From: Arthrobacter sp. ISL-65
Lineage (GTDB): Bacteria; Actinomycetota; Actinomycetes; Actinomycetales; Micrococcaceae
Assembly: GCF_018613795.1 (NCBI RefSeq)
Contig: NZ_JAGGPN010000019.1
Span: forward strand, 62,001 to 126,000
Reading direction: 5' to 3'
Length of the DNA stretch: 64,000 nt
Both the position numbers and the translations under genes were made by a program. The first letter of the stretch is position 1. Every line of letters starts with the position of its first letter. The notes beneath the pieces were generated by a model. That model did no database searches and had not been told where the DNA came from. It worked only from the letters and a program-made list of their open reading frames with translations. Shown piece after piece: positions 5,260 through 51,322 of the stretch.

Positions 5260-5262
5260 GGC

Positions 5263-7168: not shown

Positions 7169-7201
7169 GAACCCCGGGAAATCATTGATTTCCCGGGGTT
7201 C
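7169..7201 (-). terminator. Terminator of tRNA-Leu
   Basis: A perfect 16-bp inverted repeat (7169-7184 and 7186-7201) lies just downstream of the minus-strand tRNA and is followed in that direction by a T-rich stretch (TTTCTTGTTTC). Confidence 0.85.
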
Positions 7202-7208
7202 TGATGCG

Positions 7209-7291: not shown

Positions 7292-7683
7292 GCAACTTCT
7301 TCCACTCAGCCCAACCGGAATCCGGTTGTGCACCTCGTGAAAGCAGCGAGATCAAGCATAACGGACATTCCCCGCAAATTCCTAATCGGGGCTTCGCAGC
7401 CGCCTTGCAGCATGATTCTCCCGGCAGTGCCACGGTTGCGAAGGCCCCCAATGCCACCACGGAGGCAAGGTTCCAACCTGTGATCGCTCCCACATCCGCT
7501 GGGGAAACGTGAACGAATCGGGCTCCCGGCGCGTTGTGGATTAAGGTCTTTCGCAGACGTGGCAAGTAGTATCGGATACATAGGGGCCCGCTTCCGGCGG
7601 GCACGGTGTTTTGTTGTGACCGCATCGCCAGAATGAGTTCCACGGGACGTGCTGTCCCTCAGCAGCAAGGAAAGGAGAGGACC

Positions 7684-8433: not shown

Positions 8434-8912
8434 GCGAACTGACTATCACAGCCCTGCGCTTTGGGTTCCTGCTTCTTCTCTGGGTTCTCATCTTCAGCAT
8501 CGTCTCCGCCATGCGGCGCGATCTCATGATTGGACGCAAGGCGGCCACCGGCGCCCCCACGGCACGACAGGTGCGGAAGAACCCGGAACTCGCCGAACCG
8601 GCCCCCGCGCCGGCAAAGCAGCAGGCCCGCCAGTTGCTCGTCACCGAAGGCCCGCTCAAGGGCCGCACGGTCCCACTGGCTGCCAGCCCCATCCTGCTGG
8701 GACGCGCGCAGGAGGCCACACTGGTACTCGAGGATGACTACGCTTCCGGCAGGCACGCCCGGCTCTTTCCGCAGGGAAGCCGCTGGTTCATCGAAGACCT
8801 CGGCTCCACCAACGGCACCTATCTGGCCGACCAGCAGCTCACCAGGGCCCTGCCCGTGGACCTTGGTGTACCCGTGAGAATCGGCAAGACGGTCATTGAA
8901 TTGAGGCCGTAG
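8430..8912 (+). CDS. fhaB: FhaB (FipA), membrane-anchored FHA domain protein
   Basis: A 160-aa protein with one N-terminal membrane helix (residues about 8-27, ALRFGFLLLLWVLIFSIV), a linker, and an FHA domain from about residue 65 to the end (LLGRAQEATL, SGRHARL, GSTNGTYLAD). In Mycobacterium the orthologue links FtsZ and FtsQ and is phosphorylated by PknA. Start and the fhaA stop share ATGA, implying coupled translation. Confidence 0.94.
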   Translation: MSELTITALRFGFLLLLWVLIFSIVSAMRRDLMIGRKAATGAPTARQVRKNPELAEPAPAPAKQQARQLLVTEGPLKGRTVPLAASPILLGRAQEATLVLEDDYASGRHARLFPQGSRWFIEDLGSTNGTYLADQQLTRALPVDLGVPVRIGKTVIELRP

Positions 8913-8914
8913 AC

Positions 8915-10735: not shown

Positions 10736-12186
10736 GCCACGCCGACACCATGCCCAAACCCCGGCGCAACGTGGAACTGCTGTTGCTCGTACTCGCCCTG
10801 TCGGTCAGCATCGGCGCCAATGCACTGATCAGCATCGACGAACAGACCTCACTGGACACGGACTTCTGGTTCCAGTCCAGCCTGCTCGCTGTCGCGTCCC
10901 TGGTGTTCCATGTGGTCCTCCGGCTCCGGGCTAAGTATGCCGATCCGGTAATACTTCCGCTGGTCGTTACCCTGAACGGCCTCGGCTTGGCGATGATCCA
11001 CCGGCTCGACGCTCCGGGGGAAGACACCGGCAACAATCAGCTGCGCTGGACCGTCATCGCCATGGCCGTTGCCATCGCCGTGATCTGGTTCCTCAAGGAC
11101 CACCGTGTCCTGCGCCGCTTCACCTACATTTCCCTGGCCGTCAGCGCCCTGCTCCTGATACTTCCGCTGGTCCCCGGCATCTCCGCAGGCGAAATCCTCG
11201 GCGCCCGGGTCTGGATTCGCCTCGGTCCGATGACGTTTCAGCCTGGTGAGGTCGCCAAGATCACCCTCGCCATATTCTTTGCCGGGTATCTTTCCTCGAA
11301 CCGCGACCTCATCATGCTGGCCGGCCGCAAGATCGGCCCCATGCAGTTCCCCCGGTTCAAGGACATGGGTCCCATGATCACGGCCTGGCTCGTGAGCATC
11401 GGCGTGCTGATCTTCCAGCGCGACCTCGGGTCGTCCGTGCTGTTCTTCGGCCTGTTCATCGTGATGATCTACGTGGCCACCAGCCGCATCAGCTGGGTGG
11501 TCATCGGCCTCACCCTGATCCTCGGCGGCGGCTTCGTGGCGTCCAAGGTCTTCTCGCACGTTGGCCTGCGCATCGACAGCTGGCTCAATGCCTTCACGGA
11601 GGAAGTTTTCGGCCGTTCCCCCGGCGGCAGCGGCCAGATCGTCGAAGGCCTGTTCGGCATGGCCAGCGGCGGACTCGTGGGCACCGGCCTCGGACAGGGC
11701 CGGCCCAATCTGGTGCCGTTCGCCAACAGCGACATGATCATCGCCTCCTTCGGCGAGGAGCTGGGCCTGATCGGCCTCTTCGCCATCGTGATGATGTACC
11801 TGCTGCTCTTCACCCGCGGTTTCCGTGCGGCCCTCGGCACCCGCGACGCCTTCGGCAAGCTCCTCGCCTGCGGCCTGTCCTTCGCGGTGGCCCTGCAGTG
11901 CTTCGTGGTGATCGGCGGCGTCACGCGGCTGATTCCGCTGACCGGCCTCACCACGCCGTTCCTGGCCGCTGGTGGCTCCTCGCTGCTGGCCAACTGGATC
12001 ATCGTTGGCCTGCTGCTGATGATCTCGCACACGGCCCGCGGCCCGGTGGACACCTCACCAATGCAGCCCGGCCGCACACCTGAGGCGCAGAAGCCGGTGC
12101 CGGTGACAGCCGCAGGAAGCCGGCAGGACCGGAACACCACACAGACTCTCCCAGACGCTCCCACCGAGGCGGTGAAACACCTGTGA
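10732..12186 (+). CDS. rodA: RodA/FtsW family SEDS peptidoglycan glycosyltransferase
   Basis: A 484-aa polytopic membrane enzyme (10-12 helices) that polymerises lipid II glycan strands with its partner PBP encoded next. The conserved SEDS catalytic Asp is about D230 in FQRDLGSSVLFF. Other family blocks are RIDSWLNAF, GLVGTGLGQGRPNLVPFANSD and the terminal GGVTRLIPLTGLTTPFLAAGG. The ATG overlaps the pstP stop (ATGA) and its stop overlaps the pbpA GTG. The Arg/Thr-rich cytoplasmic tail is a possible kinase target (inference). Confidence 0.95.
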   Translation: MSHADTMPKPRRNVELLLLVLALSVSIGANALISIDEQTSLDTDFWFQSSLLAVASLVFHVVLRLRAKYADPVILPLVVTLNGLGLAMIHRLDAPGEDTGNNQLRWTVIAMAVAIAVIWFLKDHRVLRRFTYISLAVSALLLILPLVPGISAGEILGARVWIRLGPMTFQPGEVAKITLAIFFAGYLSSNRDLIMLAGRKIGPMQFPRFKDMGPMITAWLVSIGVLIFQRDLGSSVLFFGLFIVMIYVATSRISWVVIGLTLILGGGFVASKVFSHVGLRIDSWLNAFTEEVFGRSPGGSGQIVEGLFGMASGGLVGTGLGQGRPNLVPFANSDMIIASFGEELGLIGLFAIVMMYLLLFTRGFRAALGTRDAFGKLLACGLSFAVALQCFVVIGGVTRLIPLTGLTTPFLAAGGSSLLANWIIVGLLLMISHTARGPVDTSPMQPGRTPEAQKPVPVTAAGSRQDRNTTQTLPDAPTEAVKHL

Positions 12187-13637
12187 ACCAGGCCATTCGA
12201 CATTCATGGATCGCCGCGATCGCCATGTTCGCCCTGATTTTCGGTGCGATCAGCTACGTCCAGGTGGTGGGTGCGGACGAGCTCAAGGCCAATCCGTGGA
12301 ACAGGCGAGCCATACTGCAGAACTACTGCAATGACCGGGGGGCGATCCTCGTGGGTGGCTCCGCCATCGCCGAATCCGTCCCGGGCAATGAATCCTGCAA
12401 GTTCCAGCGCCGGTACAACCAGCCTGACCTGTACGCGGGGCTGACGGGATACTTCTCCCGGAGCTACGGGGTCACCGGCCTCGAAAGCGCCATGGATGCC
12501 CAGCTGGCCGGAAGTTCGGACCAGCTGTTCTTCGACCGGATCGGGCAGCTCTTCCTGGGCAACCAGCCCAAGGGCGCGTCCGTCGAGCTGACCATTGACC
12601 CCAAGATCCAGAAGCTGGCGTACGACCTCATCCCGGACGGCCAGCGGGGGTCGATCGTCGTGACCGATCCCAAGACGGGCAACATCCTCGCCATGGTCAG
12701 CAAACCGTCCTATGATCCCAACCTCATCGCCACCCAGGACGTCGCCAAGGAGCAGGCCGCTTACAACGAGGCCATCAAGGTCCCGGGCGTCAATCTGAAC
12801 CCCTCGGTCAGCGGCCCCACGGGCGCCCTGCTGGCACCGGGCTCGGTTTTCAAGCTGGTGGACACGGCAGCAGCCCTGAAGTCGGGCAAGTACAACGCCG
12901 ACAGCGTGCTGCCCAACCCGGCCCAGATGAGCTTCCCGGGCATCCAGTACCAGCTGCCCAACTACGCCGGCGGCAACTGCTACACCCGGAACACAGCGAG
13001 CTTCGCGTTCGCGCTGCAGCAGTCATGCAACACGCCCTTCGCCAGTATTGCCCGCGATCTCGGGGAAAACGCGATAGCCCAGCAGGCCAGCAAGTTCGGC
13101 TTCAATTCAGACCTCGGCGACCAGCTCAAGCTGGATTACGCCCCCAGCGTCTTCCCCTCGGACCTCGACGACGCCGGATTGGCGCAGTCCGCCATCGGCC
13201 AGCGCGACGTCCGTGCGACGCCGCTCCAGATCGCGCTGATGACCTCGGCCATTGCCAACAGCGGAGTGCAGATGGCGCCGAACCTGATCAAGGCCGTACG
13301 TTCCCCGGACCTCCGTGTGATCGACGAACCGAAGCCGGCGGCTTTGCGAACCTCGACGACGCCGGAGATCGCCGGACAGATCACCGACTGGATGACCAGC
13401 GTGGTCAGCGAGGGCATCGGCTCCGGCGCCGCCGTCCCCGGCGTCGAGGTCGCCGGCAAGACCGGCACCGCCGAGCTCGGGAACGGCCTGAACAACTCTT
13501 GGTTTACGGGGTTCGCCCCGGCTAACGATCCGCAAGTGTCCGTCACCGTCGTCATGCAGGGTGTGGACATCAGCACCGGAGCACAGCTAACCAGTCCGAA
13601 CGCAAAGAAGATTTTTGAGGCGGTGTTGAATAAGTGA
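12183..13637 (+). CDS. pbpA: PbpA, class B penicillin-binding protein (transpeptidase)
   Basis: A 484-aa bitopic protein with an uncleaved N-terminal membrane helix ([19 protein letters not shown]) and an extracellular transpeptidase domain that cross-links peptidoglycan. The acyl-serine motif is PGSVFKL (Ser near residue 222), the second motif QQSCN (Ser near 281), and the third AGKTGTAEL (Lys near 425). It starts with GTG overlapping the rodA stop. The pair is the elongation/septation SEDS-bPBP unit of actinobacteria. Its stop overlaps pknA as GTGA. Confidence 0.95.
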
Positions 13638-15502
13638 GGCCTACATCGGGAATCACCCTCGGCGGCAGATTCCAGTTGACCACGCGTATCGCGATCGGCG
13701 GCATGGGTGAAGTCTGGAAGGCCAAGGACCAGATCCTGGGCCGGATCGTGGCCATCAAGGTGCTCAAAGAGGAGTACACGGGCGACCCCGGCTTCCTCCA
13801 GCGGTTCCGCGCCGAAGCCCGCCACACCGCGCTCCTCAACCACGTGGGCATCGCCAACGTCTTCGACTACGGCGAGGAGGAAGGCTCCGCCTACCTGGTG
13901 ATGGAGCTGGTCCCCGGGCAGCCGCTGAGCAGCATCATCGAGCACGAGCAGGTGCTCTCACCGGACCGGACGCTGTCCATCATGGCGCAGACGGCGCGGG
14001 CACTGTCCGTGGCCCACGCCCAGGGCCTGGTGCACCGTGACATCAAGCCCGGAAACCTGCTCATCACCCCGGACGGGCGGGTCAAGGTCACCGACTTCGG
14101 CATCGCGCGCCTGGCGGACCAGGTGCCGCTGACCCAGACCGGCCAGGTCATGGGCACCGCCCAGTACCTCGCCCCCGAACAGGCCACCGGCCAGACCGCA
14201 ACCGGCGCCTCGGACATCTACTCGCTCGGCGTCATCGGCTACGAGTGCCTCAGCGGGCACCGGCCGTTCTCCGGCGAATCCCAGATTGCCATCGCCCTGG
14301 CCCAGGTCAACGATGCGCCGCCGCCCCTGCCTGAGTCGCTGTCCAAGCCGGTCCGGGCGCTACTAATGTCCATGCTGGCCAAGGATCCGAAGAACCGCCC
14401 GGCCAACGCCATCAAACTGGCCGAGGCAGCCGAGGCCATCCGCAACGGTGACATCCCGGCAGCCCACGCCGCCGTCCCCGGCATGCTCCTGTACGAAGGG
14501 GGCACCGGCGCCATGACGGCCCCGGTGAATATCGCCACGGCACCAACCGGCGTGATCGGCTCGGAGAAGAGCCCGGCGGCGGCCACCTCCGCGCTGCCCG
14601 TGCTCGGCGCGGCAGCCGCGGGAGCTGCCGCTGGCGGAGCCGCGGCTGCGGCCGCCGGGAACCCCACCGATGCGGCCCCCACGCGGGCGGGGAGCACGCT
14701 GTCGCGTGCCGATGCCCTGGCCGCCGAGCGCAGTTGGGACCAAGAAGAGGACCAGTACGCAGCACCGTACGACGGCGAACCCGCCGATGAGCCCGAGCGG
14801 CGGAAGCGCAGCCCGTGGACCTGGCCGCTGATCGCCCTGATCCTGCTGGTGCTGTTCGTCGTCGCCGGCATCCTTCTGAGCCAGGGCGGCTTCCTGTTCC
14901 CGGGCCAGAGCCCTGCCGCCACCACGTCGAGCACACCCAGCCGCAGTGTGAGCACCAGTTCCACCCCCACGCCCACCCAGACGTCGGAGACGCCGACGCC
15001 CACACCGACACCGACGCCGAAGCCGACGCAGTCCACTCCCGCGGCCATCAACGTCATTCCGGACGCGTACCTCGGCAAGCAGTACAGCGAGGTCCGCGCC
15101 GAACTGATCGCGCTCGGGCTCAAGGTCAACGGCGATGAAGTCTTCAACGCCGCCACACCAGGCACTGTCACGGACCTCAACCCGTCCGGCCCGCTGCAGG
15201 CCGGCGACACCGTAAAGGTCACGTATTCCAAGGGACCGAAGCAGATCGCCGTCCCGGACATCAGCACGGGCAGCAGCGAGTCCGAAGTCCAGTCAGCCAT
15301 CGAAAAAGCCGGTCTGCGCTGGCAAAAGGGTGCCGACGAGCCCGGCGATCCCGGCCAGGACGCCGGAACCTTCGTCCGTTCCGAGCCCCAAAGCGGCCGG
15401 GAGGTCGACGCCGGCACTGTCGTGACTTACCACCTGTCCGAGGCGCTGATCCCCACCCCCTCGTCCACGCCCACGCCAAGCGGCTCGCCGACCGGACCAT
15501 AA
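13634..15502 (+). CDS. pknA: PknA-type Ser/Thr protein kinase with two PASTA domains
   Basis: A 622-aa membrane kinase controlling cell shape and division. The kinase domain runs from residues about 8 to 270: the ATP-binding loop [14 protein letters not shown], catalytic Lys in VAIKVL (about 42), HRDIKPGN (about 135), DFGIARL (about 154) and the APEQ segment. A low-complexity Ala linker, one membrane helix (about 395-417), a Thr/Pro-rich stalk and two extracellular PASTA repeats (about 472-537 and 538-610) follow. Mycobacterial PknA is about 430 aa and lacks PASTA domains, so this copy differs in being able to bind peptidoglycan fragments itself. The name follows gene position between pbpA and pknB. 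Confidence 0.92.
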
Positions 15503-15505
15503 GCC

Positions 15506-17449
15506 GTGACCACGCCGCGAACTCCGTCACACCGGGAAGACAACATCCCGGTGACCAGTCAGCGCGTCCTGAACGGACGCTATGAACTCGGGGAACTCAT
15601 CGGCCGCGGGGGCATGGCCGATGTGCACCGTGGCCTGGACACCCGGCTGGGCCGGACGGTCGCCATCAAGCTGCTCCGCCCGGACCTGGCCCGGGACCCC
15701 CAGTTCCAGGCCAGGTTCAAGCGCGAGGCCCAGGCCGTCGCAGCCCTGAACCATCCGTCGATCGTGGCCATCTACGACACGGGCGAACACACCGTGCCGG
15801 GCGACGCGCATGACCAGGTCCGCGTTCCCTACATCGTCATGGAGTTCGTGGCGGGCAAGACTCTCCGGGACCTGATCAGGGCCGGTGACATCACCATTGA
15901 CCAGGCCGTGGAGTACACCCTGGGTGTCCTGTCTGCACTGGAATACAGCCACAAGGCCGGCATCGTGCACCGGGACATTAAACCTGCGAATGTGATGTAC
16001 TGCGCGAACTCGGACATGGTCAAGGTCATGGACTTCGGCATTGCCCGCGCGGTGGCCGATTCCTCCGCGACCATGACCCAGACCCAGGCGGTGGTGGGCA
16101 CCGCCCAGTACCTGTCGCCGGAGCAGGCGCGCGGCGAAGCAGTGGACGCCCGCAGCGACCTGTATTCGGCAGGCTGCCTGCTGTACGAAACTATGACCGG
16201 CCGCCCGCCCTTCGTGGGTGAAAGCCCCGTATCTGTGGCGTACCAGCATGTCCGCGAGAAGCCGGAACCACCCAGCAACTTCAACCATCAGATCTCCGGA
16301 GCGCTGGACAGCGTGCTGGAAAAGGCGCTGCAGAAGAACCGTGCGGACCGTTTCCAGGACGCCGCGGCCTTCCGCCGTGCGCTGCGGGCCGCTAACAACG
16401 GGATCGCCGTTCCGGCATTGTCGCCAAGCGAAGCGCCGACGGACCCCAATGACATTCCTGAGCCGCACCGCACGCCGCCCACCGAAGCGTTTTCCATGAC
16501 CGGAGCCAGCTTCCTCGACGACGCTCCCGTGGGCCGCCTGCGCCGTACCCGGGACATGGACGATGATGCGTCCGTGCTGCCGGCCGATGCCGCGGCGGTC
16601 TACGAGACGGCCGAGCACGATGAACTTCCGCTGGGCCTGCCCCGCGAACGGCAGCGATCGGGCTTACAGAAGTCCCGCCGTCGGGCCTGGATTACGACAT
16701 TCGTGCTCTTCACGCTCCTGGTGCTGGCCGGCGGCGGCCTGTGGTTCTACAACTTCCTCAACCAGCCGCCTGCCGAACCGGCACGCGTCGCGATTCCCTC
16801 GGTCGAGAAGCTTTCCGAATCAGAGGCGCTGCAGACGCTCTACGACGCGAAGCTGCGGCCACAGATCAAGCGGGTGCAGCACGACGCGATCGCCAAGGGC
16901 ACCGCCATTGGCACCGCGCCGCCGGCGGGATCGTCGCTGGAACCGGACTCGGAAATAGTCCTGAACATCTCTTCAGGCCCCAGTGCCGTCAAGATCCCGG
17001 AGACGCTGCCGGGACGGACGGAAGCGGCAGCCCGGGACATCCTGCGTCAGGCGGGACTGGTGGGCGCGCCGTCCACCACCATGGCCAACAGCGCCACTGT
17101 TCCGGCGGGCCTGGTGATCACCACCAAGCCGGCGCCGGGTCAGCAGGTGGCGGTGGGGAGCACCGTTGAGATCCTGGTGTCCACAGGCAAGGTGGTCATG
17201 CCGGAGCTTCGCGGCATGACCCGTGCCGAGGCCGAGGCAGCGCTCAAGGAGCTCGGCCTGGTTGCCGTCATCAGTGAGGCGGAGAACTCCCAGGTCCAGC
17301 CGGGCAAGGTGACCGGCCAGAGCGATCCGATCAACTCGCTCGTGGAGCAGGGCAAGGCCATCACCGTGACGGTGGCCAGGGCCCCGGCTCCGGCGCCCGC
17401 ACCCACCCCGACGCCGACCCCGACGCCGAGCCCCACCAAGGGCAAGTAG
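15506..17449 (+). CDS. pknB: PknB-type Ser/Thr protein kinase with three PASTA domains
   Basis: A 647-aa membrane kinase that senses muropeptides or lipid II. The GTG at 15506, 3 nt after pknA, is used; a later GTG at 15551 is also possible since neither has a clear Shine-Dalgarno. Kinase motifs are GRGGMADVHRG, AIKLLRPD, HRDIKPANVMY, MDFGIARA and the activation-loop threonines in ATMTQTQAVVGTAQYLSPEQ. The membrane helix is near 393-416. Three PASTA repeats follow at about 427-493, 494-560 and 562-630, then a Pro/Thr tail. Mycobacterial PknB has four. It is last in the operon and ends before a strong convergent terminator. Confidence 0.95.
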   Translation: MTTPRTPSHREDNIPVTSQRVLNGRYELGELIGRGGMADVHRGLDTRLGRTVAIKLLRPDLARDPQFQARFKREAQAVAALNHPSIVAIYDTGEHTVPGDAHDQVRVPYIVMEFVAGKTLRDLIRAGDITIDQAVEYTLGVLSALEYSHKAGIVHRDIKPANVMYCANSDMVKVMDFGIARAVADSSATMTQTQAVVGTAQYLSPEQARGEAVDARSDLYSAGCLLYETMTGRPPFVGESPVSVAYQHVREKPEPPSNFNHQISGALDSVLEKALQKNRADRFQDAAAFRRALRAANNGIAVPALSPSEAPTDPNDIPEPHRTPPTEAFSMTGASFLDDAPVGRLRRTRDMDDDASVLPADAAAVYETAEHDELPLGLPRERQRSGLQKSRRRAWITTFVLFTLLVLAGGGLWFYNFLNQPPAEPARVAIPSVEKLSESEALQTLYDAKLRPQIKRVQHDAIAKGTAIGTAPPAGSSLEPDSEIVLNISSGPSAVKIPETLPGRTEAAARDILRQAGLVGAPSTTMANSATVPAGLVITTKPAPGQQVAVGSTVEILVSTGKVVMPELRGMTRAEAEAALKELGLVAVISEAENSQVQPGKVTGQSDPINSLVEQGKAITVTVARAPAPAPAPTPTPTPTPSPTKGK

Positions 17450-20955: not shown

Positions 20956-21359
20956 TTATCCACTTAGCAACAGGCGACTACCCACAAGTTATCCACAGTT
21001 GGGGAAAACTTGTGGGCATCGTCAGCGTAATCGCCAGCATGTAGGCGTTGTGGAGCTTCTAAACCTATGACTTACACCTCTGCGCGTTATTAACAGTGTG
21101 AATAACCCTGTTGAAAGGACGCTTGCTAATTCCCTTCACGGACGTTCAGGTGCCTGTTTATGCCCAGGACACCCCACTGCGGCGAGGTTTGGGTGAAGTT
21201 GTCCACTTAACCACAGCAGTAGGCGTCCCAGTTATCCACAAGTGTGGAAGAAAACGTCCACGCGGACCAGAGGCAGGCCGGAAGGCCGGGATTCAGGGGG
21301 CTGGCCTGTGACTTACATCCGTGTAAGTTATTAACAGTGTGGATAACCGCTGTGGAAAA
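20956..21359. other. DnaA-box-rich non-coding region (oriC-like or titration locus)
   Basis: The gap 20871-21404 carries no gene. It holds three perfect DnaA boxes: TTATCCACA at 20989-20997 and 21231-21239, and TGTGGATAA at 21338-21346. One-mismatch boxes lie at 20956-20964 (TTATCCACT), 21097-21105 (TGTGAATAA), 21206-21214 (TTAACCACA) and 21351-21359 (TGTGGAAAA). TTGTCCACT at 21198-21206 differs by one base from the high-GC consensus TTGTCCACA. Two copies of a convergent pair, TTATTAACA-G-TGTGRATAA, occur at 21087-21105 and 21328-21346. Confidence 0.65.
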
Positions 21360-21361
21360 CT
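21066..21361. repeat. Imperfect direct repeat of about 50 bp
   Basis: Segments 21066-21115 and 21308-21361 share TGACTTACA, a variable 10-12 nt, and then GTTATTAACAGTGTG followed by ATAACC and CTGT(T/G)GAAA. A third, shorter copy of GTTATTAACAGT lies at 20361-20372. Spacing between the two long copies is about 240 bp. Confidence 0.7.
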
Positions 21362-38531: not shown

Positions 38532-38607
38532 CAAATTCGGTTCCTCAAAGCTTGCTGCCTGCATTACATGCAGCCGCAAGCCCGAAAACCAGGGTGCTGG
38601 CCCGGCT

Positions 38608-38778
38608 TAATCCACAGGGTTATGCACAGTCCGTGGATAATCGGCTACTGAGACACTCTAGGGGATGAAAAGCCTAGAAGATAGCTGGGAAGTCCCTTGT
38701 GGATAATTACACCGTTGTGGTTCGAAAACGGCGATTGTGGGCCGCTTCATCCACAGGTTCGGCACACGGTTAGCCACA
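38608..38778. other. DnaA-box cluster upstream of dnaA
   Basis: The 472-nt gap between dnaA and rpmH (38532-39003) contains TAATCCACA (38608-38616), TTATGCACA (38620-38628, again 12 bp on), CGTGGATAA (38632-38640), a perfect TGTGGATAA (38698-38706), TCATCCACA (38747-38755) and TTAGCCACA (38770-38778). It includes the divergent dnaA and rpmH promoters and probably contributes to origin function or autorepression. I could not place the promoters confidently. Confidence 0.7.
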
Positions 38779-39003
38779 GCTGGGGAAACACGCCGGATGC
38801 CCTGCTGGTTTGACTCCCGGCGGCGTTTTGCCCTACCGTTGTGGAGTCCTTTGTGCCTGCTTTCTGAACCCATTTTGGACTTCCGGACGCTTCGCGTGTT
38901 CCGGGAAATCCAGGGGAAGCAGACACATACAAAACTTAGCGTCGGCCAGTTCTTCCCCTTACTGATCGGGTGGGCGCACCTTTGATCCACTGGAGTAACT
39001 AAC

Positions 39004-39141
39004 GTGAGCAAGCGGACTTTTCAGCCGAATAACCGCCGTCGGGCCAAGAAGCACGGCTTCCGCCTTCGTATGCGCACCCGTGCCGGCCGTGCCATTCTGG
39101 CCGCCCGTCGTGGCAAGGGCCGCACCGAACTGTCGGCCTAA
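39004..39141 (+). CDS. rpmH: 50S ribosomal protein L34
   Basis: 45 aa, [19 protein letters not shown] with the strongly basic C-terminus [12 protein letters not shown] start at 39004 after GGAG. L34 beside dnaA, followed by rnpA, is nearly universal. Confidence 0.97.
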
Positions 39142-39181
39142 ATACTGACTTGTCGGTCTTCTTCCTTCTGCGAGATTAGCG

Positions 39182-39607
39182 GTGCTTGCCACCCGGAACC
39201 GCCTGAGGACTTCAACCGATTTTTCAACAACTGTACGTTCCGGCGTCCGCAATGGACGCCGGAACGTAGTGTTATATACGGCAACTATTGGAGCCGACGA
39301 ACCAAGCCGCATCGGCTTCATTGTTTCCAAAGCTGTCGGGAACGCTGTTGCCAGGAACCTCGTTAAGAGGAGACTTAGAGAAGCCGGCGCTGTCTCGCTG
39401 CACGAGTACGGCACCGGGTTCGCTATTGTGGTGCGTGCTTTGCCTGCCTCCGCAACAGCCAGCTGGGATGAACTCCTGGCTGATTACAACGCTGCCTTGG
39501 CTAACACCATGAGGCGGCTGGCTGGCCGCCACCCGGGGGTGACCGGAACGAGGCCGGCCGGAACGCGACCGGACGGAACAACACAGGAGGGGACACAGCG
39601 TGCTTGA
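39182..39607 (+). CDS. rnpA: Ribonuclease P protein component
   Basis: 141 aa with GTG start; the protein cofactor of RNase P, which matures tRNA 5' ends. The RNA-binding signature is NAVARNLVKRRLREAG. The C-terminal 25 residues are a Thr/Gly/Arg tail (GTRPAGTRPDGTTQEG) beyond the usual domain. It overlaps yidD by 8 nt. Confidence 0.95.
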   Translation: MLATRNRLRTSTDFSTTVRSGVRNGRRNVVLYTATIGADEPSRIGFIVSKAVGNAVARNLVKRRLREAGAVSLHEYGTGFAIVVRALPASATASWDELLADYNAALANTMRRLAGRHPGVTGTRPAGTRPDGTTQEGTQRA

Positions 39608-42310: not shown

Positions 42311-43363
42311 GTGACCAGTAGCGAAACCTCCACGCAGCGGATTCCCCCGTTCGTGTCTCTGGGGTCGGCGCGTGCCTTTGGCGCATCACCGGTCGCTACG
42401 ACAGTAAATCAGTCCAATCCGGTTGCAGGCACGAGCGCGGCCAAGGTTTCACGTGAAACTGCCGCCCGGGGCAACGTCTTGGACACGCTGGATGATTCGA
42501 GCCCCATCGCCCGGGAACTCGCGCACGAGAACAGGAGGCGGGAACGCCTCCTCGGCCGCAACCTGCCGAAGCCGGAGAAGACACGGATCTTCACGGTTTC
42601 AAACCAAAAGGGTGGAGTGGGAAAGACCACAACCACCGTCAACATCGCTGCAGCGCTGGCGGCGGCGGGCTTGAACGTCCTGGTCATCGACATCGACCCG
42701 CAGGGCAACGCGTCCACGGCACTGGGCATTGAGCACCATGCCGACGTCGACAGCATCTACGATGTCCTGATCAACGATCTGCCTCTGGAAGACGTAGTCG
42801 CACCGTGCCCGGACATCAGCAACCTCATCTGCGCCCCGGCCACCATCCACTTGGCCGGCGCCGAGATCGAACTCGTTTCCCTGGTGGCACGGGAGCAGCG
42901 CCTCCGCCGCGCCATCGACGTCTATGCCAAGTCCCGGCAGAAGAAGGGCGAGCAGCGGCTCGACTACATCTTCATTGACTGCCCGCCCAGCCTGGGCCTG
43001 CTGACGGTCAATGCCTTCTGTGCGGCCGGCGAAGTACTCATCCCCATTCAGTGCGAATACTACGCACTCGAGGGACTGAGCCAGCTGCTGAAGAACATTG
43101 AGATGATCCAGAAGCACTTGAATGCAGAACTGGAAGTTTCCACGATCCTCCTCACCATGTACGACGGGCGCACCAACCTGGCCGCCCAGGTGGCAGCTGA
43201 AGTCAGGCAGCACTTTCCGGAGCAGGTCCTTGGCGCCGTCGTTCCGCGCTCTGTGCGGATCTCCGAAGCGCCGAGTTACCAGCAGACCGTCATGACCTAC
43301 GATCCATCCTCCAGCGGCGCGTTGTCCTACCTGGAAGCCGCAGCGGAAATCGCTGAGCGTTAG
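42311..43363 (+). CDS. parA: Chromosome-partitioning ATPase ParA
   Basis: 350 aa with GTG start. The ParA/Soj ATPase begins near residue 95: deviant Walker [41 protein letters not shown] and the nucleoid-binding C-terminal half. The first 90 residues are an extra low-complexity extension (mycobacterial ParA is also extended). A perfect parS site is embedded in the coding sequence at 42446-42459, within this extension. The gene is separated from parB by 67 nt with a hairpin. Confidence 0.96.
42446..42459. other. parS site (inside parA)
   Basis: Perfect GTTTCACGTGAAAC palindrome in the N-terminal extension of parA. Confidence 0.92.
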
Positions 43364-43430: not shown

Positions 43431-44750
43431 ATGAGCGATAAGCGACGCGGGCTCGGTCGCGGTCTTGGCGCACTCATTCCAAGTTCCGCGTCCGCAAGCG
43501 CTTCGGGTAACGGAGCAGCTCCGTCGCGCCCTGTGGATCTCTTCTTCCCGGAGGCGCGCAAGACGGCTGAACCCGTCCCGGCCGTTGAGCCGGACAAGTC
43601 TGACCTCGACGAAACGGCTGCACGCCGCTCCGGTCGGAAGGCTTCGGCGGAGTCTCCGGCTGAAGCGGAGGCTGCCGCAGGCAGCGAGGGTGCTTCGGAT
43701 GCGGTAAAGCCCTCCCCTGCCAAGTCCACGGCGAAGACTGCTGCTTCCCGGAGCGGTGCTTCGGAAGCCCGCGCGGGTTCCGCCAAGAATGCTGAGGAGT
43801 CCGAAGCCGTTCGCCCGGACACGTCTGCGGCGGATGAGCCTAAGAACGGTTCCGCTTCTGCCCAGTCTGCCGCTGCCGGGGGCAACGCAGAATCCGCTAC
43901 TGTCGCGGACAACGGCGTTGACCTCGTCGAGGTTCCAGGCGTGCGTTTTGCCGAGATTCCTGTCACGGACATCCATCCAAACCGCAAACAGCCCCGTTCC
44001 GTCTTCGATGAGGACGACATGGCGGAGCTTGTTCACTCTGTTCGTGAAATAGGCGTCCTCCAGCCAATTGTGGTGCGTACTTCAACCGAAAAAGGTGGAG
44101 AACCGTACGAGCTGGTGATGGGTGAGCGCCGGTGGCGTGCCGTACAGGCTGCTGGACTCTCCACGATTCCGGCGATTGTTCGTGATACGACGGATGATGA
44201 CCTGCTCCGTGACGCGCTGCTGGAGAACCTGCACCGCAGTCAGCTCAATCCGCTCGAAGAAGCTGCCGCGTACCAGCAGCTGCTTGAGGACTTTGGCACG
44301 ACGCACGAGCAGCTGGCTGACCGCATCGGTCGCTCCCGCCCTCAGGTGTCCAACACCCTGCGGCTCCTGAAGCTTCCGCCGCTGGTGCAGCGTCGTGTCG
44401 CAGCAAATGTGCTCTCGGCCGGCCACGCCAGGGCTCTCCTCTCGCTGCCGGATGCGGCGTCCATGGAACGCCTGGCGCAGAAGATTGTGGCTGAGGGCAT
44501 GTCGGTACGCGCCACCGAGGAAGCAGTCACGCTGCACCGTGAACCCGCGACGCCAGCGAAGAACAACATTCCTCGCCCGGGCGCACGTCACGAACGGCTG
44601 GATTACTTGGCGTCCTCGCTCTCGGACAGGCTCGACACCAACGTGAAGATCTCGCTTGGCGCTCGTAAGGGACGTGTGAGTATCGAGTTTGCGAGCGTTG
44701 AGGACCTGAACCGCATAATGGATGTCTTAGCGCCGGGCGCCGAAAACTAA
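43431..44750 (+). CDS. parB: Chromosome-partitioning protein ParB (CTPase, parS-binding)
   Basis: 439 aa. ATG at 43431 follows GGAGGGAA. The first 30 residues hold the ParA-stimulating motif ([14 protein letters not shown]). A long Ala/Ser/Glu-rich linker extends to about residue 160, then the conserved core follows: [14 protein letters not shown], the CTP-binding [25 protein letters not shown], and the HTH region ([20 protein letters not shown]). The C-terminal dimerisation domain ends the protein. Its targets are the parS palindromes just downstream. Confidence 0.96.
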
Positions 44751-44767
44751 AGAATAAGCCAACGATC

Positions 44768-44797
44768 AGGGCCCGTTCTTAAGAACGGGCCCTTTGC
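44768..44797 (+). terminator. Rho-independent terminator of parB
   Basis: A perfect 13-bp stem without loop spacer (AGGGCCCGTTCTT/AAGAACGGGCCCT, 44768-44793) lies 18 nt after the parB stop and is followed by TTGCTGTT. Confidence 0.9.
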
Positions 44798-45424
44798 TGT
44801 TCCTGCGCGCGATGGATGCCGACAGTCAATTTACGGCTTCCAAGTGATCGTGCCGTTACTGTGATGACGGCACAGCAGGGTGGCTGTGAGCAGGGCGCGG
44901 CGCTACTGAGGGTGCTGCAATCCGTACTCGCTTGGATACTTTTGACTCCTGGGGCTCTAGACGGAGCCGGCTCACTGGTTGCGGAGTCTTGCCTGGCAGC
45001 AGCGTCCAGCGCTTCCCATGGCCGTGGAGCGACGCATGCGGGGCAGTCAGACCCGGGCTTGAGCGTCCGCAGCTGCAAACTTCGGCGAGGAAAATCACTC
45101 CAGACCTTGTGCCTACCGGCAAATACCCCTGGTCCCTTATCTCGGGTGGGCCGGGCGGGACGCGCCTATGACGATAGTTTGCGTGGCGGAGCGTGCTGCA
45201 GGGCAAGGTCGGGTGGGGCGGCCATTCTTCGCGTGCTGTGGCGCGCGGTTCGACAGTCAGTGACCATTTCTGACAGTGACGGACGTGTTTGATGACCCGC
45301 ATATGTAGACCTGAAGCGCGTATTGGACTTGCAGATCGCCTGGGCCCCGCCCACCATGACTCTGACCCAAGCTCGGGACGTTCACTACGCGATTGGACCA
45401 GCGCAACCCTCGCGATCCGGGGCT

Positions 45425-45438
45425 GTTTCACGTGAAAC
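45425..45438. other. parS site
   Basis: GTTTCACGTGAAAC with T and A flanks, so the full 16-bp consensus TGTTTCACGTGAAACA is perfect at 45424-45439. Confidence 0.95.
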
Positions 45439-45871
45439 AGGCGAGTTGTCCGATGCAGATCCGACCAGGCTCACATCAGCTACCGCTGGGTTGTACGGGC
45501 TTTGTTCTGTTCTGTTATCTTCCCTCAATATTCTCGGCGCTTCCCGTGACTCGCGCGCCGAAGGCTAAGTCGGCAGGGGCCGGTCTGTTCCATGCCTCGC
45601 GCTTCGGTGGAACGGTAACTGCTTTCGCCCCTGCGCGCCCGCAGCCTCGGCTCACTGGGTAGTCGCGGCTGCAGTATCCCGACATCCGCTCCCGGGGCGT
45701 TTGGACTTGGAGCGACCGGTGTGGCCGCAGGCTGCACCGGCCGTGTTCTGGCCAGTGGGGCGGACCCGGCCTTCAGCAGCATACTCTTTGACGCGCCGTT
45801 CTTGATGGCCCATATGGACGAGGCCCCCATTGGACGCGTCTCGAGGCTGTCGGCAGCTGGGTGCTCCTTGC

Positions 45872-45885
45872 GTTTCACGTGAAAC
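45872..45885. other. parS site
   Basis: Perfect 14-bp GTTTCACGTGAAAC, flanked by C and A. Confidence 0.94.
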
Positions 45886-46559
45886 ATACCGCTGACCGGT
45901 ACGTTTCGCGTGTGCCAAGATGTTGGGGCGGATGATTCGTTCTGTCCACGGGGATGTAGAGATGGCTGTCGGCTGCTCCGTCCGCGGGTTCGGGACGTTC
46001 TAGCGCTTTCTGCTCTGGTGCGGTACCCTACTGCGGCGGAAGCGTGGCGCGGCACGCTATGTAAGCACCCGCTGGGCCACGGTGTCTACCTCAGAATGAG
46101 CGCACCGCATGCGTTCCCCGGGCGCTTCGGCGGCTCATGGCCAAGCCAGGCAGGTATGGACTACAGGAGTTCGGCAGGTGGAATAGACCTGGACATCACG
46201 TACGCCTCGAGACAAAACATGACAGCGTGCTGTGCAGAGGACTTCTTGAAGAGACAGTAGCGGACCTGCGGCCTGGGCGGCGGACACGACTCACCGCGCG
46301 GACTGTCATCCTATGTTCAGCGGGACCAAGGCGCAGGTGACGACGGAGGCCGCGCGGGCACGAGCTATCAGTTCAGGGGCCAACGGTCGCAGACCCCGAT
46401 ATGGTCGGTTCCAACTCCCCTGCGGCTGGGAGTGGGGTGCGTGGAGCTATCGCATCCGGCGGCACCTCGATGCGGCGCCTCTCCTGCAAGAAGTTCCTAG
46501 CCGCGTGAGGGGCATCGCATGTCGAACACTGGGTGTTGGACTAGCTCTGCGGTGGCGCC

Positions 46560-46572
46560 GTTTCACGTGAAC
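46560..46572. other. Damaged parS site (one A lost)
   Basis: Reads GTTTCACGTGAACA: the left half is intact, the right half lacks one A. It probably binds ParB weakly or not at all. Confidence 0.7.
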
Positions 46573-47004
46573 ATGACCCCCTCTGCGTCGACGTGAGGTG
46601 GTCCAACGCGTCTCGCCCTGGGATTGAGTGTGGGAGCCCTTTCCAACGTGCCATTGATGCTTCCGAAAGCCGCAGTACCGAGCCGCGCGGGCAGACTAGA
46701 TGCCGGTGCCGAAGCGGCGCCGGTGCGATTGGCTTGGGGTCTTCGCCGCGATCTTCAACGTCGGAGGACGGGGGCGCCGCCCGGAACGACACACACCACT
46801 AGGTAAAACTCCGCGATCGCACGCTAGCGGTGATCCGGAATGCAATGCGTGTAAGCGCCGCCGCCTCTTATGCAGCAGGCGGCTCAAAGCCGGGTGGCAC
46901 AAATTAGGAATCACCTGGTCGCATCCACATGCGAGCCGGGCCTGACGACCAACCGACGACGGCAGTATTGGTGCTGCACATCCTGTCTGCGAGGTGGTGA
47001 TAGA

Positions 47005-47052
47005 CCGGTGGATAACCCTGTGGATAACCCTGTGGGTAACGCTGGGGATATG
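47005..47052 (-). repeat. Tandem 12-bp DnaA-box repeat, array 1
   Basis: Four contiguous 12-mers: CCGGTGGATAAC, CCTGTGGATAAC, CCTGTGGGTAAC, GCTGGGGATATG. Unit 2 contains a perfect minus-strand DnaA box (47019-47027); units 1 and 3 are one mismatch away. All point the same way. Confidence 0.85.
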
Positions 47053-47135
47053 GGGCTGCGGAAGTGGCGAGGGACCACCCGTTCGGCGGCCCTGTGATGG
47101 CCTTAGTGTTCTGTGCGGTCGGGCTTCCCGTATTT

Positions 47136-47149
47136 GTTTCACGTGAAAC
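47136..47149. other. parS site
   Basis: Perfect 14-bp GTTTCACGTGAAAC, flanked by T and G, 84 bp after DnaA-box array 1. Confidence 0.94.
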
Positions 47150-47383
47150 GCCACGTTGCCAGACGGCGGCTGTCACGGTGCAGTCAGGTGCCTCAGTTGC
47201 GGCACGCCTTGGAGCATTAAAAAGGTTTCCTAAAAGGTGATTCTCGGCACAATTACCAAGGAACCTTGAAGGTTGCATCGCGTCACGCCGGGAGGCTACG
47301 CCGACTCGCCCGCCGAACGGCGCGGGCGTGAGGTGTGAGATCGCTCATGGAGCTGACCGTATGCCCACAGTGCGGCCGAGATG

Positions 47384-47431
47384 CCTGTGGATAAGCATGT
47401 GGATTCACCTGTGGATAAGACTGTGAATAAA
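47384..47431 (-). repeat. Tandem 12-bp DnaA-box repeat, array 2
   Basis: Four contiguous 12-mers: CCTGTGGATAAG, CATGTGGATTCA, CCTGTGGATAAG, ACTGTGAATAAA. Units 1 and 3 hold perfect boxes (47386-47394 and 47410-47418). Same period, orientation and unit sequence as array 1, 380 bp away. Confidence 0.85.
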
Positions 47432-48810
47432 GTCACCGTGAGGCCCAGTGAATACACATATGACAGGGGGCCCAATCGCTTTGCGCGGAGTCACCGTCCC
47501 CTATCGCGACAGCGATCAGAATGGATAGTGAAGTTGGGCCACGGCTCGAGCTGGGCGACCTTGGTCCCGCGACTGTGCCTACCCGGATGACGCCAAGGTT
47601 CGTCGGACCTGACCCATCACCTGGGAGGGCACGAATGGAAAATCATCGCTGCATCGGAGAGCAGGAGTTGGCCTCATGACTGACGCCTCTCGATCCGCGG
47701 GCGCCAGATAATGGCCTGAGGCTCTCGACGCATAGACATCCGTACAGCACGTGTTGCCGCGAGGACCAGGGTGCGATTGCGATGCGTTCGATGCGCGTCT
47801 CCACGGAGGCCGCGCCTGCGCGTTATCTTTGCACTCCTAGGACAGTGGTGTTGTGCGCCCCGCCGAAGGTTTTGTGGTTCTAGGCCAGCGTCGGTTTGTT
47901 GTGATGATGGCTAGGGCCGGATCGTGAAATGGGTCCTCGGCGAAGCTGGCGCCGCGCGGCGGAATCCCTTAGACCGGGTGGGAAGCTGGTGCGGACCTAA
48001 CGTTTCGGCGGGGCCGTGGGCCGTATTCCCTCCGCCTCGTAAGGTGCTTCATCACCGGGCAATGACCCGACGTCGCAATCTCCGACTTCCATCGGGCTGA
48101 GCACGGCGTCGACTCCGCATACCGCATTCCCCTCTGAGAGGGAAGGCCGAGGACCGGGAGGAGCTGAGACCGCCCTGGGTTCGCGAGGGAGCTGTCGATA
48201 GACCAGGAGCAGTGGACCAGAAACTGGAGTGGAAGCTACGAGGAGGCCGGAAGGGTACCGAGGCGAATAGCTCAAACGGGTTACACGACAAGACCTCGTC
48301 TCGTATGGAGACGCCGCCCAGTCTAGTGACGTATTCCGCACTGCTCGTCCCCCCATTCCCCCACTGGTCCGGAAACGAAGGCCGTTGGGACATGGGGCGG
48401 TCCCATCTTGTGTTGGGTCTACTTGGCGGATCCAGCTGTGGCTGGCGGTATCCGGGCAGCCGGGCTTGGACTATGCCATCATGTGGCGCGGACAGAGCCC
48501 TGGTCGCATGAAGCCCGATGGTGGCACCTGGCCCGCAGCATTGGCCTTCTGGCACTCGGGCTGGCTGTCCTGGCTTCGTCGGAACGGCCGTCCGTGACGC
48601 GCCAAAAGGAGATCTCGCGCTACGGTGCGCCAGACTTCCGCTCATGTGATTGGTGCTCAAAGGGGGGTCCGCTTGTCGTCTTGCGATCCGATCGCCGGCG
48701 ATCCCCCGGCTCGATCGGACACTGCGGTCATGATGCGCCACACTACTCAGGGATTGTTGCCAGGCAGTGGCGCTTCCCTGCGGCGGCCAATCTGAACTGG
48801 TGCGCGCGGT

Positions 48811-48824
48811 GTTTCACGTGAAAC
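48811..48824. other. parS site
   Basis: Perfect 14-bp GTTTCACGTGAAAC, flanked by T and T; only 56 bp from the next site. Confidence 0.94.
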
Positions 48825-48866
48825 TATTGGGGTTGCTCCCCTGCCGAGGCTAGCGGGATCAGTGTC

Positions 48867-48880
48867 GTTTCACGTGAAAC
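48867..48880. other. parS site
   Basis: Perfect 14-bp GTTTCACGTGAAAC, flanked by C and A. Confidence 0.94.
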
Positions 48881-49889
48881 ATTGGCTTCGGCTTCTCGCA
48901 GAAGGTTTTTCCAGGGTGCCTCATATTGCGCAGCGTCAGGCATGGAGCCGTCGGGAGGCGACTGTCAGTTCCTGGGGCGCTGATGTAGAGCAACGCTTTG
49001 ATGGGAATCTGCCTCTCGAACGCCCTGATTTGGGCTTGCAGCTGCCGTGGGCCGAGTGATAGGAGAAGGCACACGCGGAGTACACCCAAACCCTGCGGCT
49101 ACAGGGTCCGCGCCCGGCCACCTTTACAAGTGTGCAGCAGGGAAATCAGGGTCGTGATGTGAGTCCCCATTTGTACCTACTCGCTGAGAACGCACGGAAA
49201 GCCACGGCTAACACCTCTTAAACTGTGTCCGCCACTCGGGGATAAGATCAGGCCTGGAGTTGCTCTAGGTTTCAGGTCTTTGCAGCTTGAATCGAGAAGA
49301 ACAACCTTCCCATTCTCAGTGCGGGGGCGGCGCCGCTCAGCGCTGGTATCGGCAATCGGCGATCGGCGTCCGAGACATGCGACCGCAGCCAGTGGCTGGC
49401 CCCGCGTTTGGGTCCGCTTGCGGGAACCTCGGAACTGGTGCCGTCTGGGTCTGCTTTGTATCAGGCCGTGGGTCTGTCTGCAACCGCAGCCGTACTCATA
49501 AGGTATATATGGGTGCTCCCGTCCACAGCCCGCGTCGTGGGTTCGGGGTGCTCATAGGCTGGCTCACCGGAGGGCTAGAAGTGCTTGTATGTGTGGATTC
49601 GGTGAGCACGTAGTGCTGGCACCCATCTGGGCCAGTAGTTCGTCGTGCGGTGCGGGGCCGCGAGATGCTGCAAAAGCGGGGAGCCCCCACGGTACGACAT
49701 CCATGTCGTCATATGTCTGCTCGACCTCCAGTGGCGCAAGACCCTGAGGGAGGGGTACGCGGTGGAGTGGGCTCGCCGTTGGCGAGGCGATTGAGCTAGT
49801 CCAGGGGTAGTTTTCGTAGCAGGCCGTCTCGTTTTTCGGTGATCTCGGTTCTGCGCATCCAGATGCCTCGACTGGTTAGGGTCGTTCAT

Positions 49890-49903
49890 GTTTCACGTGA
49901 AAC
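49890..49903. other. parS site
   Basis: Perfect 14-bp GTTTCACGTGAAAC, flanked by T and G. Confidence 0.94.
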
Positions 49904-50435
49904 GTATCCGGCTCAGAGCGCTCCCAACACCACCCTGCCCTCCAGGCACCAGTTTCTGCGGTTGGGTGCAAAAATATGTCCAGGGGCTCCTTGCTTCATT
50001 TGTTAAACCACCCCTAACCATTTCGATACGCGAAGCGCAACGACGGCGACCTGCTCGCTCGTCGGAATCCGCACAACGTTGCCTAGCAACTATTCCCCTA
50101 CATGAACAGTGCGCCAGCATCCAGGTGGCGACTGACCATGACCTTGAGTATTGAACGGGCCGCTGCGGGGCCCTACGTTCCAGGCTTACATCTACCGCTT
50201 CGGCAAAGGTGGCAGTTCCCTTTGGTGGCTACTTCCGCGACCTTCAAGCTTGTAGCGAACCAGGCCACCACACTGGGCGTGGTGGTGAAGCGGTCAAAAG
50301 TCGTCCGCTGATCGTGCGCCAAAGCGGAATTGGAGTGTCCCGTTCGTCGGCAATGCTAGAGGACGACGGGCGAAGAGCCATGATCACCGGCTCGCGACCC
50401 GGTTCCGCATTGTCCGATGGCTGGGTCCACTGATC

Positions 50436-50449
50436 GTTTCACGTGAAAC
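50436..50449. other. parS site
   Basis: Perfect 14-bp GTTTCACGTGAAAC, flanked by C and A; last site before trxA. Confidence 0.94.
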
Positions 50450-50901
50450 ATCCTTGTCTGCGGTCCACAGCTCCCACAACCGCAGCCCAAAAGGGTCCGG
50501 GCCGGATTCTCGCATCTTGCCCGAGGCGACGTGCGTATCCTCAATTCGAAGGCGCTGTCCGCGATGCGTCACGCTTGCTGGCGGTGCTCCGCCCATACGG
50601 CCCCTATGCCCCACCCCCGTGTGTGACTGGACGATTCTGGGAGAGTAGACCGAGCATTCGCATCCCAATCGAGTTTCCTTCGGCACCACGGCCCCCGGGT
50701 GGGGGTGAGTGGGCTATGTGGCAAGGTGGAGTAACGCTGGAATGACAGAGAAAGAGGACGAATCGGCATTCCACGCAGCATATGAGTCACGGTTCGTCCC
50801 AGCTGCCGCTCGCTCACATCGAGCCTGTGTGCATTATCCCAGCGGATGTCGTCCGGACCGTTAAGTACGTGCCGTCGTCGCTGAGGTTTACCCGCAGAAC
50901 G

Positions 50902-50942
50902 AAAGGTGACCATCACTCCTCTCGGAGTGATGGCCACCTTTC
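50902..50942 (-). terminator. Terminator of trxA
   Basis: AAAGGTG (50902-50908) and CACCTTT (50936-50942) flank an inner ATCACTCC/GGAGTGAT stem; on the minus strand the hairpin ends in a T-rich stretch. Confidence 0.8.
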
Positions 50943-50995
50943 TGGCGCCTGTTGCCGGCGTTGCCTGTCAGGATTCCCGTCCAGGCATGCTGGGA

Positions 50996-51322
50996 CTAGG
51001 ACAGAACGTCCGCGAATTCCTTCTCGAAGAACTGCTTCGGCTTGGCACCAATGACCGTGCTCTTCACTTCGCCGCCCTGGAACAGGTACACGGCAGGAAT
51101 GGAGGTGATGCCGTACTCGGCGGCGATGGCAGGGTTGTCATCAACATTCACCTTAACGACGTTGACCTTCTCGCCGTACTCCACCGAGATCTCATCCAGG
51201 ATGGGACCCAGCTTCCGGCACGGACCGCACCATTCGGCCCAGAAGTCAACGATTACCGGCTTGTCAGCTGCGAGTACGTCGCTGCTGAAACTTGCGTCTG
51301 TTACGTCTTTTGCGTTGCTCAT
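50996..51322 (-). CDS. trxA: Thioredoxin
   Basis: A 108-aa cytoplasmic disulfide reductase with the active site WCGPC at residues 31-35 in FWAEWCGPCRKLGP and the cis-Pro in SIPAVYLF. ATG at 51322 gives the standard length. It lies 38 nt downstream of trxB in the same direction. Confidence 0.97.
   Translation of the reverse strand: MSNAKDVTDASFSSDVLAADKPVIVDFWAEWCGPCRKLGPILDEISVEYGEKVNVVKVNVDDNPAIAAEYGITSIPAVYLFQGGEVKSTVIGAKPKQFFEKEFADVLS

Follow-up and report, generated by a model that had tools for sequence, protein, structure and literature searches.

A gene-free, parS-rich putative centromere with embedded DnaA-box-like arrays near the replication origin of an Arthrobacter chromosome

In this work, we focused on about 6 kb of gene-free DNA located between parB and trxA, near the replication origin of Arthrobacter sp. 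ISL-65. We showed that this gap holds seven of the eight parS sites of the assembly and one damaged copy, together with two small arrays of likely DnaA-binding sites on either side of one parS. Related species keep this layout while the rest of the sequence changes freely, which makes a link between initiation of replication and chromosome segregation testable. We interpret the locus as a non-coding chromosomal centromere with an embedded DnaA/ParB module, protein binding, transcriptional silence and function being inferred.

The region was first described from a sequence-only reading of a 64,000-nucleotide stretch (hereafter the window), which reported seven perfect 14-bp sites and one damaged copy in a domain without credible genes. 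This observation was confirmed: all seven perfect GTTTCACGTGAAAC sites and the damaged copy were found at the coordinates given in that reading, and an eighth perfect site was identified in parA. With up to 3 mismatches, 9 sites were found in the window against 1.64 expected, and 0 of 100 shuffles reached 9. The whole 5.26-Mb assembly (75 contigs) contains exactly 8 sites at ≤1 mismatch, all within 8 kb, in or beside parAB and within about 14 kb of dnaA, as expected for the parS cluster of a ParABS chromosomal centromere. Coordinates of the features are collected in the table below; genes were mostly named from their sequences.

Table. Features of the parB-trxA region (positions in the window)
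Feature	Coordinates	Strand	Description
parA	42311..43363	+	open reading frame
parS in parA	42446..42459		perfect; one parS in this stretch (2.16-2.34 kb before the parB stop) in 41 of 41 congeneric loci
parB	43431..44750	+	open reading frame; a relative found in 101 of 101 congeneric genomes searched
parB-trxA gap	44751..50995		non-coding, 6,245 bp, from parB stop to trxA stop; putative centromere platform
Hairpin	44768..44793	+	terminator-like, after parB
parS	45425..45438		perfect
parS	45872..45885		perfect
parS	46560..46573		damaged (2 mismatches)
Array A1	47007..47039	-	three DnaA-box-like sites at 12-bp spacing (1, 0, 1 mismatches to TTRTCCACA)
Core parS	47136..47149		perfect; 129 bp after the start of A1
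Array A2	47386..47430	-	DnaA-box-like sites at 47386, 47398 (degenerate), 47410, 47422
parS	48811..48824		perfect
parS	48867..48880		perfect
parS	49890..49903		perfect
parS	50436..50449		perfect
Inverted repeat	50901..50942		19 bp, beside trxA, in an 83-bp stretch alignable to the congener L001
trxA	50996..51322	-	right border of the gap

To search for genes, codon scoring was applied to the 72 ORFs of ≥40 aa of the gap. The best coding score was -1.8, against 62 for trxA and 112 for jag (neither in the training set), whereas the best ORF of each of 50 shuffled gaps scored -1.1 on average and 8.0 at most. Ten of the longer ORFs had no Pfam match at E 0.1, and no Rfam match was found in the gap. 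No promoter-like match was found there either, against 1.5 expected, but this evidence is weak. The next longest stretch of the window without a scored ORF is 1,020 bp (38580-39599) and, judging by gene order, probably holds rpmH and rnpA; this coverage scan is imperfect, as it also missed trxA.

In order to determine whether the gap is a peculiarity of one strain, 41 congeneric loci (window included) and 40 loci from other genera were compared. L008 was excluded from the former (trxA out of range; it was later shown 16.7 kb along locus L117) and L056, L063, L069, L074 and L080 from the latter (trxA out of range). In the 40 remaining congeneric loci, the gap is 3.9-7.3 kb long and contains 5-11 parS. 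A named set of 80 loci, at least 14 of which are the same contigs as in the first set, was further examined; 71 had both ends in range (9 without trxA in range were dropped), with gaps of 3.9-8.8 kb. All these counts concern related species and are not independent. Decay of a gene set in this strain only, named beforehand as one outcome that would refute the sequence-only reading, was not observed. However, gap length varies twofold within the genus and from 70 bp to 6.8 kb across the family, and one congener (G047) carries about 14 kb with at least six gene-like ORFs inside the gap, so a strictly gene-free state is not indispensable. In G066, another genome of our sample, one of ten parS lies about 540 kb away.

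The gap evolves like unconstrained non-coding DNA, except at specific sites. In the closest pair, 742 substitutions were counted in 5,498 aligned bases (13.5 %) and 48 of 53 indels were not multiples of three, but there was no substitution in nine shared parS and 0 of 48 in A2. By contrast, A1 had 5 substitutions in 48 bp, near the background rate. Between the window and L001, the gap aligned no better than shuffled sequence over its whole length (identity 0.747, shuffled 0.742), and BLASTN covered 212 bases only. Over the 40 gaps, the strongly over-represented words belong to parS and to the arrays.

The arrays are a second conserved part that the sequence-only reading had missed. They consist of DnaA-box-like sites at 12-bp spacing, the two arrays being 322-403 bp apart and on one strand, with a parS 116-141 bp after the first in 37 of 40 congeneric loci, although the surrounding sequence is largely unalignable. 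L028, L029 and L035 were left out of the alignment (no pair of perfect boxes) but kept in these counts. The two-array score was 38-50 of 54 in 71 of 71 named loci and 38 or more in 39 of 40 loci of the first set, whereas randomised gaps reached 31 (60 shuffles) and 33 (120 first-order randomisations); the remaining locus, L040, scored 34 and is not separable from randomised gaps. The arrays therefore qualify, beyond chance, as clusters of DnaA-box matches outside oriC, box identity resting on consensus only. The array search considered one strand only, but strand was verified separately with perfect boxes on both, and all 93 perfect boxes in these gaps are on one strand. A core parS (≤2 mismatches) was present in 60 of 71 named loci; it is missing in 3 of 40 loci of the first set and in 11 of 71 of the named set, among them 5 of 5 Paenarthrobacter, and two other genera (g7 and g19) have both arrays but no parS at that offset. 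The pattern GTGGATA-N100-130-parS was found in 161 of 206 congeneric genomes and is lacking in 45, the reversed pattern being found in 0 of the rows inspected. In the class, 3 of 394 genomes matched the A1-parS spacing and these three belong to this genus, but the pattern is strict and only three other members of the family were in that sample.

The sequence-only reading had proposed a centromere-like loading platform for sliding ParB-CTP clamps and SMC, kept free of transcription; this interpretation is partly supported. The gene-free, parS-rich state shared by the congeneric loci examined, the nature of the over-represented words (predicted protein-binding sites) and the unconstrained evolution of the rest agree with it, whereas ParB-CTP sliding, SMC loading and absence of transcription remain inferences. 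Its statement that actinobacterial parS are usually scattered singly across genes is too general, since in Corynebacterium glutamicum 9 of 10 parS are intergenic within 35 kb (PMC7083940).

We consider it likely that the gap is the chromosome's centromere, i.e. a long non-coding stretch kept by selection for its DNA sites and probably for its length, with an embedded DnaA-box module. In this view, ParB would load at the parS sites, slide along the gap as clamps and recruit SMC, as inferred from ParB biology, while DnaA would assemble on two same-strand arrays flanking one ParB loading site. The most likely role of the module would be to tie the state of DnaA to the centromere: DnaA on A1/A2 would either modulate ParB loading and spreading at the core parS, so that segregation is licensed when DnaA-ATP is high, or be titrated and released there when the centromere is copied just after initiation. 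A direct DnaA-ParB coupling is only tentatively proposed. Our analysis established the sites, their conserved order, strand and spacing, non-coding evolution, constraint on parS and A2 and the absence of a skew flip, whereas ParB and DnaA binding, ParB spreading, ParA-driven segregation, silence and the direction of the coupling are inferred. Equally tentative is a bolder reading, that of a bacterial 'regional' centromere in which several kilobases of sequence-free spacer, kept long and mostly gene-free by selection, work as a ParB/SMC runway, with a DnaA-gated ParB entry site (array-parS-array) at its heart coupling initiation to segregation in most of a genus. How initiation of replication is tied to segregation is an open question outside a few model species. 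Here, the sequence itself offers a compact, conserved unit in which likely initiator sites and a centromere site are locked together inside DNA that evolution otherwise leaves free, in a soil bacterium where this can be tested; it also gives a natural test of whether a ParB platform needs gene-free length.

DnaA boxes near centromere sites have been described before. In Caulobacter crescentus, DnaA boxes occur in the parS region near the origin, where DnaA is reported to bind parS and trigger partitioning (Mera et al. 2014, cited in PMC6399470). Boxes likewise lie beside parS here, but two 12-bp-spaced same-strand arrays frame a parS at a nearly fixed distance inside 4-9 kb of non-coding DNA in another phylum, DnaA binding being predicted only. 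C. glutamicum also has ten parS in one cluster near oriC, nine of them intergenic, where ParB binds and SMC is enriched in a ParB-dependent way; that cluster is spread over 35 kb at 73 kb from oriC, and DnaA is not mentioned in the text of that paper (PMC7083940). The DnaA-box clusters of B. subtilis and S. coelicolor and E. coli datA also lie outside oriC, no parS in the cluster being mentioned in the text consulted (PMC5295017, PMC5742627). In rctA/parS2 of Vibrio cholerae chromosome II, an initiator-binding site is combined with a parS near the origin, but the initiator is RctB, not DnaA, and the replicon a secondary chromosome (PMC6399470). Literature searches, in which subscription journals were mostly missing, revealed no paper on DnaA-box arrays in an actinobacterial centromere.

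Among alternative explanations, it is possible that the two arrays are a DnaA titration or inactivation locus, like B. subtilis DnaA-box clusters or E. coli datA, sharing the gap with parS without working together with it. Another DnaA-box cluster lies at about 21 kb in the window and at the matching distance from parB in 13 of 13 congeners, clusters outside oriC repress untimely initiation in B. subtilis and S. coelicolor (PMC5742627), and g7, g19 and Paenarthrobacter have arrays without the parS at the fixed offset. The conserved offset between A1 and parS in 37 of 40 congeneric loci speaks against this reading.

A more doubtful possibility, which overlaps with the preferred one and does not exclude it, is an ordinary intergenic parS cluster that has drifted to a large size, in which length has no function and only the parS sites matter. 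The intergenic parS of C. glutamicum, the variation in gap length and the insertion tolerated in G047 are in line with it. However, the shortest of 40 congeneric gaps is 3.9 kb although the sequence has been replaced, the next longest stretch of the window without a scored ORF is only 1.0 kb, and the DnaA module is left unexplained.

That the gap is the remains of genes lost in this lineage is very unlikely. All-against-all comparison of gap ORFs, restricted to gaps over 300 bp (40 congeneric, 26 others), showed that seven of the 26 gaps from other genera carry a gene-sized ORF of about 395 codons beside trxA with relatives among them, but loss of that gene would explain about 1.2 kb. No ORF of the window's gap had a relative in the other gaps at E 1e-4 or scored above shuffled gaps, and indels ignore the frame in the closest pair. 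ORF hits shared between some other congeneric gaps lie largely in several frames and both strands around the DnaA core.

Finally, that the A1-parS-A2 module is the real or a second replication origin can practically be dismissed: although the arrays frame a stretch slightly richer in A+T (lowest GC per 50 bp averaging 0.43, range 0.34-0.50, against 0.47 for like windows elsewhere in the gap), GC skew is positive on both sides (0.032 left, 0.039 right; 35 and 34 of 40 loci positive), and the regions on both sides of dnaA are strongly conserved in 21 loci with DnaA boxes at like places, the oriC-like dnaN-dnaA one holding a 28-34 % GC stretch.

The region studied belongs to a 5.26-Mb assembly of 75 contigs, and the closest named relatives of its ParB come from Arthrobacter sp. 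AFG20 (90%) and Arthrobacter ipis IA7 (88%). With genes named from the reading of their ORFs, the order is gyrA, gyrB, recF, dnaN and dnaA to the left, then yidC, jag, rsmG, parA, parB, the parB-trxA gap, trxA and trxB. The sequence-only reading had described a gene-free domain holding seven perfect parS sites and one damaged copy, and this description proved correct: all eight lie in the gap, the damaged copy having two mismatches. Nine matches were found in the window with up to three mismatches, a number reached by 0 of 100 shuffles of the window. In the whole assembly, eight sites were found with at most one mismatch, i.e. the seven of the gap and one in parA.

Location of the features discussed
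Feature	Sequence	Coordinates	Description
parB-trxA gap	window	44751-50995	6,245 bp
Array A1	window	47007-47039	first array of predicted DnaA boxes
Array A2	window	47386-47430	second array of predicted DnaA boxes
Second DnaA-box cluster	window	20956-21360	8 boxes with at most one mismatch in 500 bp, beside a rhomboid-like gene
Insertion in the gap	locus L117 of congener G047 (G047:C1:676700-694500)	about 1100-15000	about 14 kb with at least six gene-like ORFs
parS repeat	locus L117 of congener G047	15869-16232	four parS at exactly 121-bp spacing
Distant parS	congener G066	G066:C1:4729684	one of ten parS, about 540 kb from the cluster

In order to assess whether the gap is devoid of genes, a codon model was trained on 16 genes of the window. 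The best of 72 gap ORFs scored -1.8, which is within what 50 shuffled gaps give (best ORF: mean -1.1, max 8.0), while four genes outside the training set scored 62 (trxA), 112 (jag), 125 (ppi) and 71 (rhomboid). Ten of the longer ORFs had no Pfam match at E 0.1, and a search against Rfam found nothing in the gap. In the closest pair of congeneric loci, L017 and L019, 48 of 53 indels are not multiples of three, and the most phased 300-bp window has 53% of its substitutions in one phase, whereas in parB 23 of 24 differences are in one codon position. A scan for sigma-70-like promoters returned none in the gap against 1.5 expected, which is weak evidence.

To compare the gap between related bacteria, we retrieved 40 congeneric loci and 40 loci from 31 other genera of the family. 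Including the window, 40 of 41 congeneric loci had both parB and trxA in range, and their gap is 3,865-7,297 bp long (mean 5,598) with 5-11 parS. In the other genera, 35 of 40 loci had both ends and the gap ranged from 70 to 6,849 bp. On a ParB tree rooted at its midpoint, genera near the root have gaps of 77-128 bp (genera coded g2, g4, g12, g14 and g21) or 608 bp (g16), and long gaps occur in more than one part of the tree. Six parS-bearing gaps of 2.4-6.8 kb without a perfect DnaA box were found in genera g22, g23, g31 and g32 (loci L061, L062, L070, L071, L075 and L077), and long parS gaps may have arisen more than once. Seven gaps of other genera (loci L045, L047, L048, L057, L071, L073 and L077) carry an ORF of about 395 codons on the - strand beside trxA, two of them (L071 and L077) also belonging to the former group. 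A second set of 80 loci (annotated as Arthrobacter, Pseudarthrobacter, Paenarthrobacter and a few others), at least 14 of them the same contigs, judged by length, as in the first set, gave 71 loci with both ends, with gaps of 3,931-8,762 bp and 5-11 parS.

Some exceptions were observed. In congener G047, parB and trxA are about 16.4 kb apart, as a stretch without parS, in which at least six ORFs score as genes, lies inside the gap, followed by the array-parS core and trxA. A gene-free state is therefore usual but not indispensable. The regularly spaced parS of the same locus suggest that parS sites can multiply by tandem duplication. In G066, a single parS lies far from the cluster. Additionally, a parS lies 22-68 bp after the parB stop in 31 of 41 congeneric loci and within 80 bp of it in 29 of 40 loci of other genera, but the window lacks it.

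We further examined how the gap evolves. Between the window and the congeneric locus L001, parB differs at 40% of four-fold sites and the gap aligns no better than a shuffled one (0.747 against 0.742), BLASTN covering only 212 bp, at the DnaA arrays and beside trxA. Between L017 and L019, the gap differs at 13.5% of aligned sites (742 of 5,498) and parB at 9% of four-fold sites. By contrast, the nine parS shared by this pair have no substitution in 126 bp and A2 has none in 48 bp, while A1 has 5 in 48 bp; a tenth parS of L017 is absent from L019. The sequence of the gap is thus free whereas parS and A2 are not, and A1 is not shown to be slower in this pair.

Word counts over 40 congeneric gaps revealed two strongly enriched families, i.e. 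parS and DnaA-box words such as GTTATCCACA, the latter having been overlooked in the sequence-only reading. The boxes form two arrays (A1 and A2) at 12-bp spacing, 322-403 bp apart, and all 93 perfect boxes in these gaps are on one strand. The arrays were located by their own score alone, and a parS with at most two mismatches was then found 116-141 bp after the start of A1 in 37 of 40 loci, perfect in 34. Array scores are 38-50 of 54 in 39 of 40 loci; the remaining locus, L040, scores 34, a value nearly reached by randomised gaps (maximum score 33 in 120 randomisations). In the second set, the score is 38-50 in 71 of 71 loci and the parS lies at 110-145 bp in 60 of 71, the 11 loci without it including all five Paenarthrobacter loci. 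A pattern search found GTGGATA-N100-130-parS in 161 of 206 congeneric genomes. In the class, 3 of 394 genomes matched a stricter form of the pattern, all three belonging to this genus. Genera g7 and g19 (four loci) have two arrays 392-454 bp apart; g19 has a parS about 370 bp after the first array, while g7 has none between the arrays.

The interpretation given in the sequence-only reading, i.e. a stretch kept for its DNA function as a loading platform for sliding ParB clamps and SMC, free of transcription, was partly supported. Comparison between loci supports a DNA function well, and the DnaA module turns a parS platform into a composite element, but transcriptional silence, ParB sliding, SMC loading and the binding of ParB and DnaA to these sites are inferred rather than shown by the sequence. 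In this view, ParB would load at the parS sites and spread. B. subtilis ParB spreads over kilobases and bypasses roadblocks by dimer recruitment in vitro (PMC9242446), and in C. glutamicum ParB binds a parS cluster where SMC is enriched (PMC7083940). In Caulobacter, DnaA binds parS and enables partitioning (PMC6399470); this DnaA-bound centromere is the closest known system, from which the present element differs in layout and phylum. From these reports we tentatively infer a DnaA-modulated ParB entry site within a long ParB runway. Plain DnaA titration by the arrays remains about as likely, each reading being no more than a possibility: DnaA-box clusters repress untimely initiation in B. subtilis and S. 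coelicolor according to PMC5742627, although the B. subtilis clusters were found to be of little weight in PMC5295017.

The core is not an origin of replication, as GC skew is positive both to its left (mean 0.032, 35 of 40 loci) and to its right (0.039, 34 of 40), with no sign change, and the lowest GC content per 50 bp between A1 and A2 averages 43% (range 34-50%). The regions on both sides of dnaA are highly conserved in 21 loci, with DnaA boxes at like places and an AT-rich stretch of 28-34% GC per 50 bp between dnaN and dnaA. Finally, the second DnaA-box cluster of the window has counterparts in its congeners, 13 of 13 having 8-13 boxes per 500 bp at the matching distance from parB. Together with the gap core, it places DnaA-box clusters on both sides of oriC, at about -16 and +10 kb.
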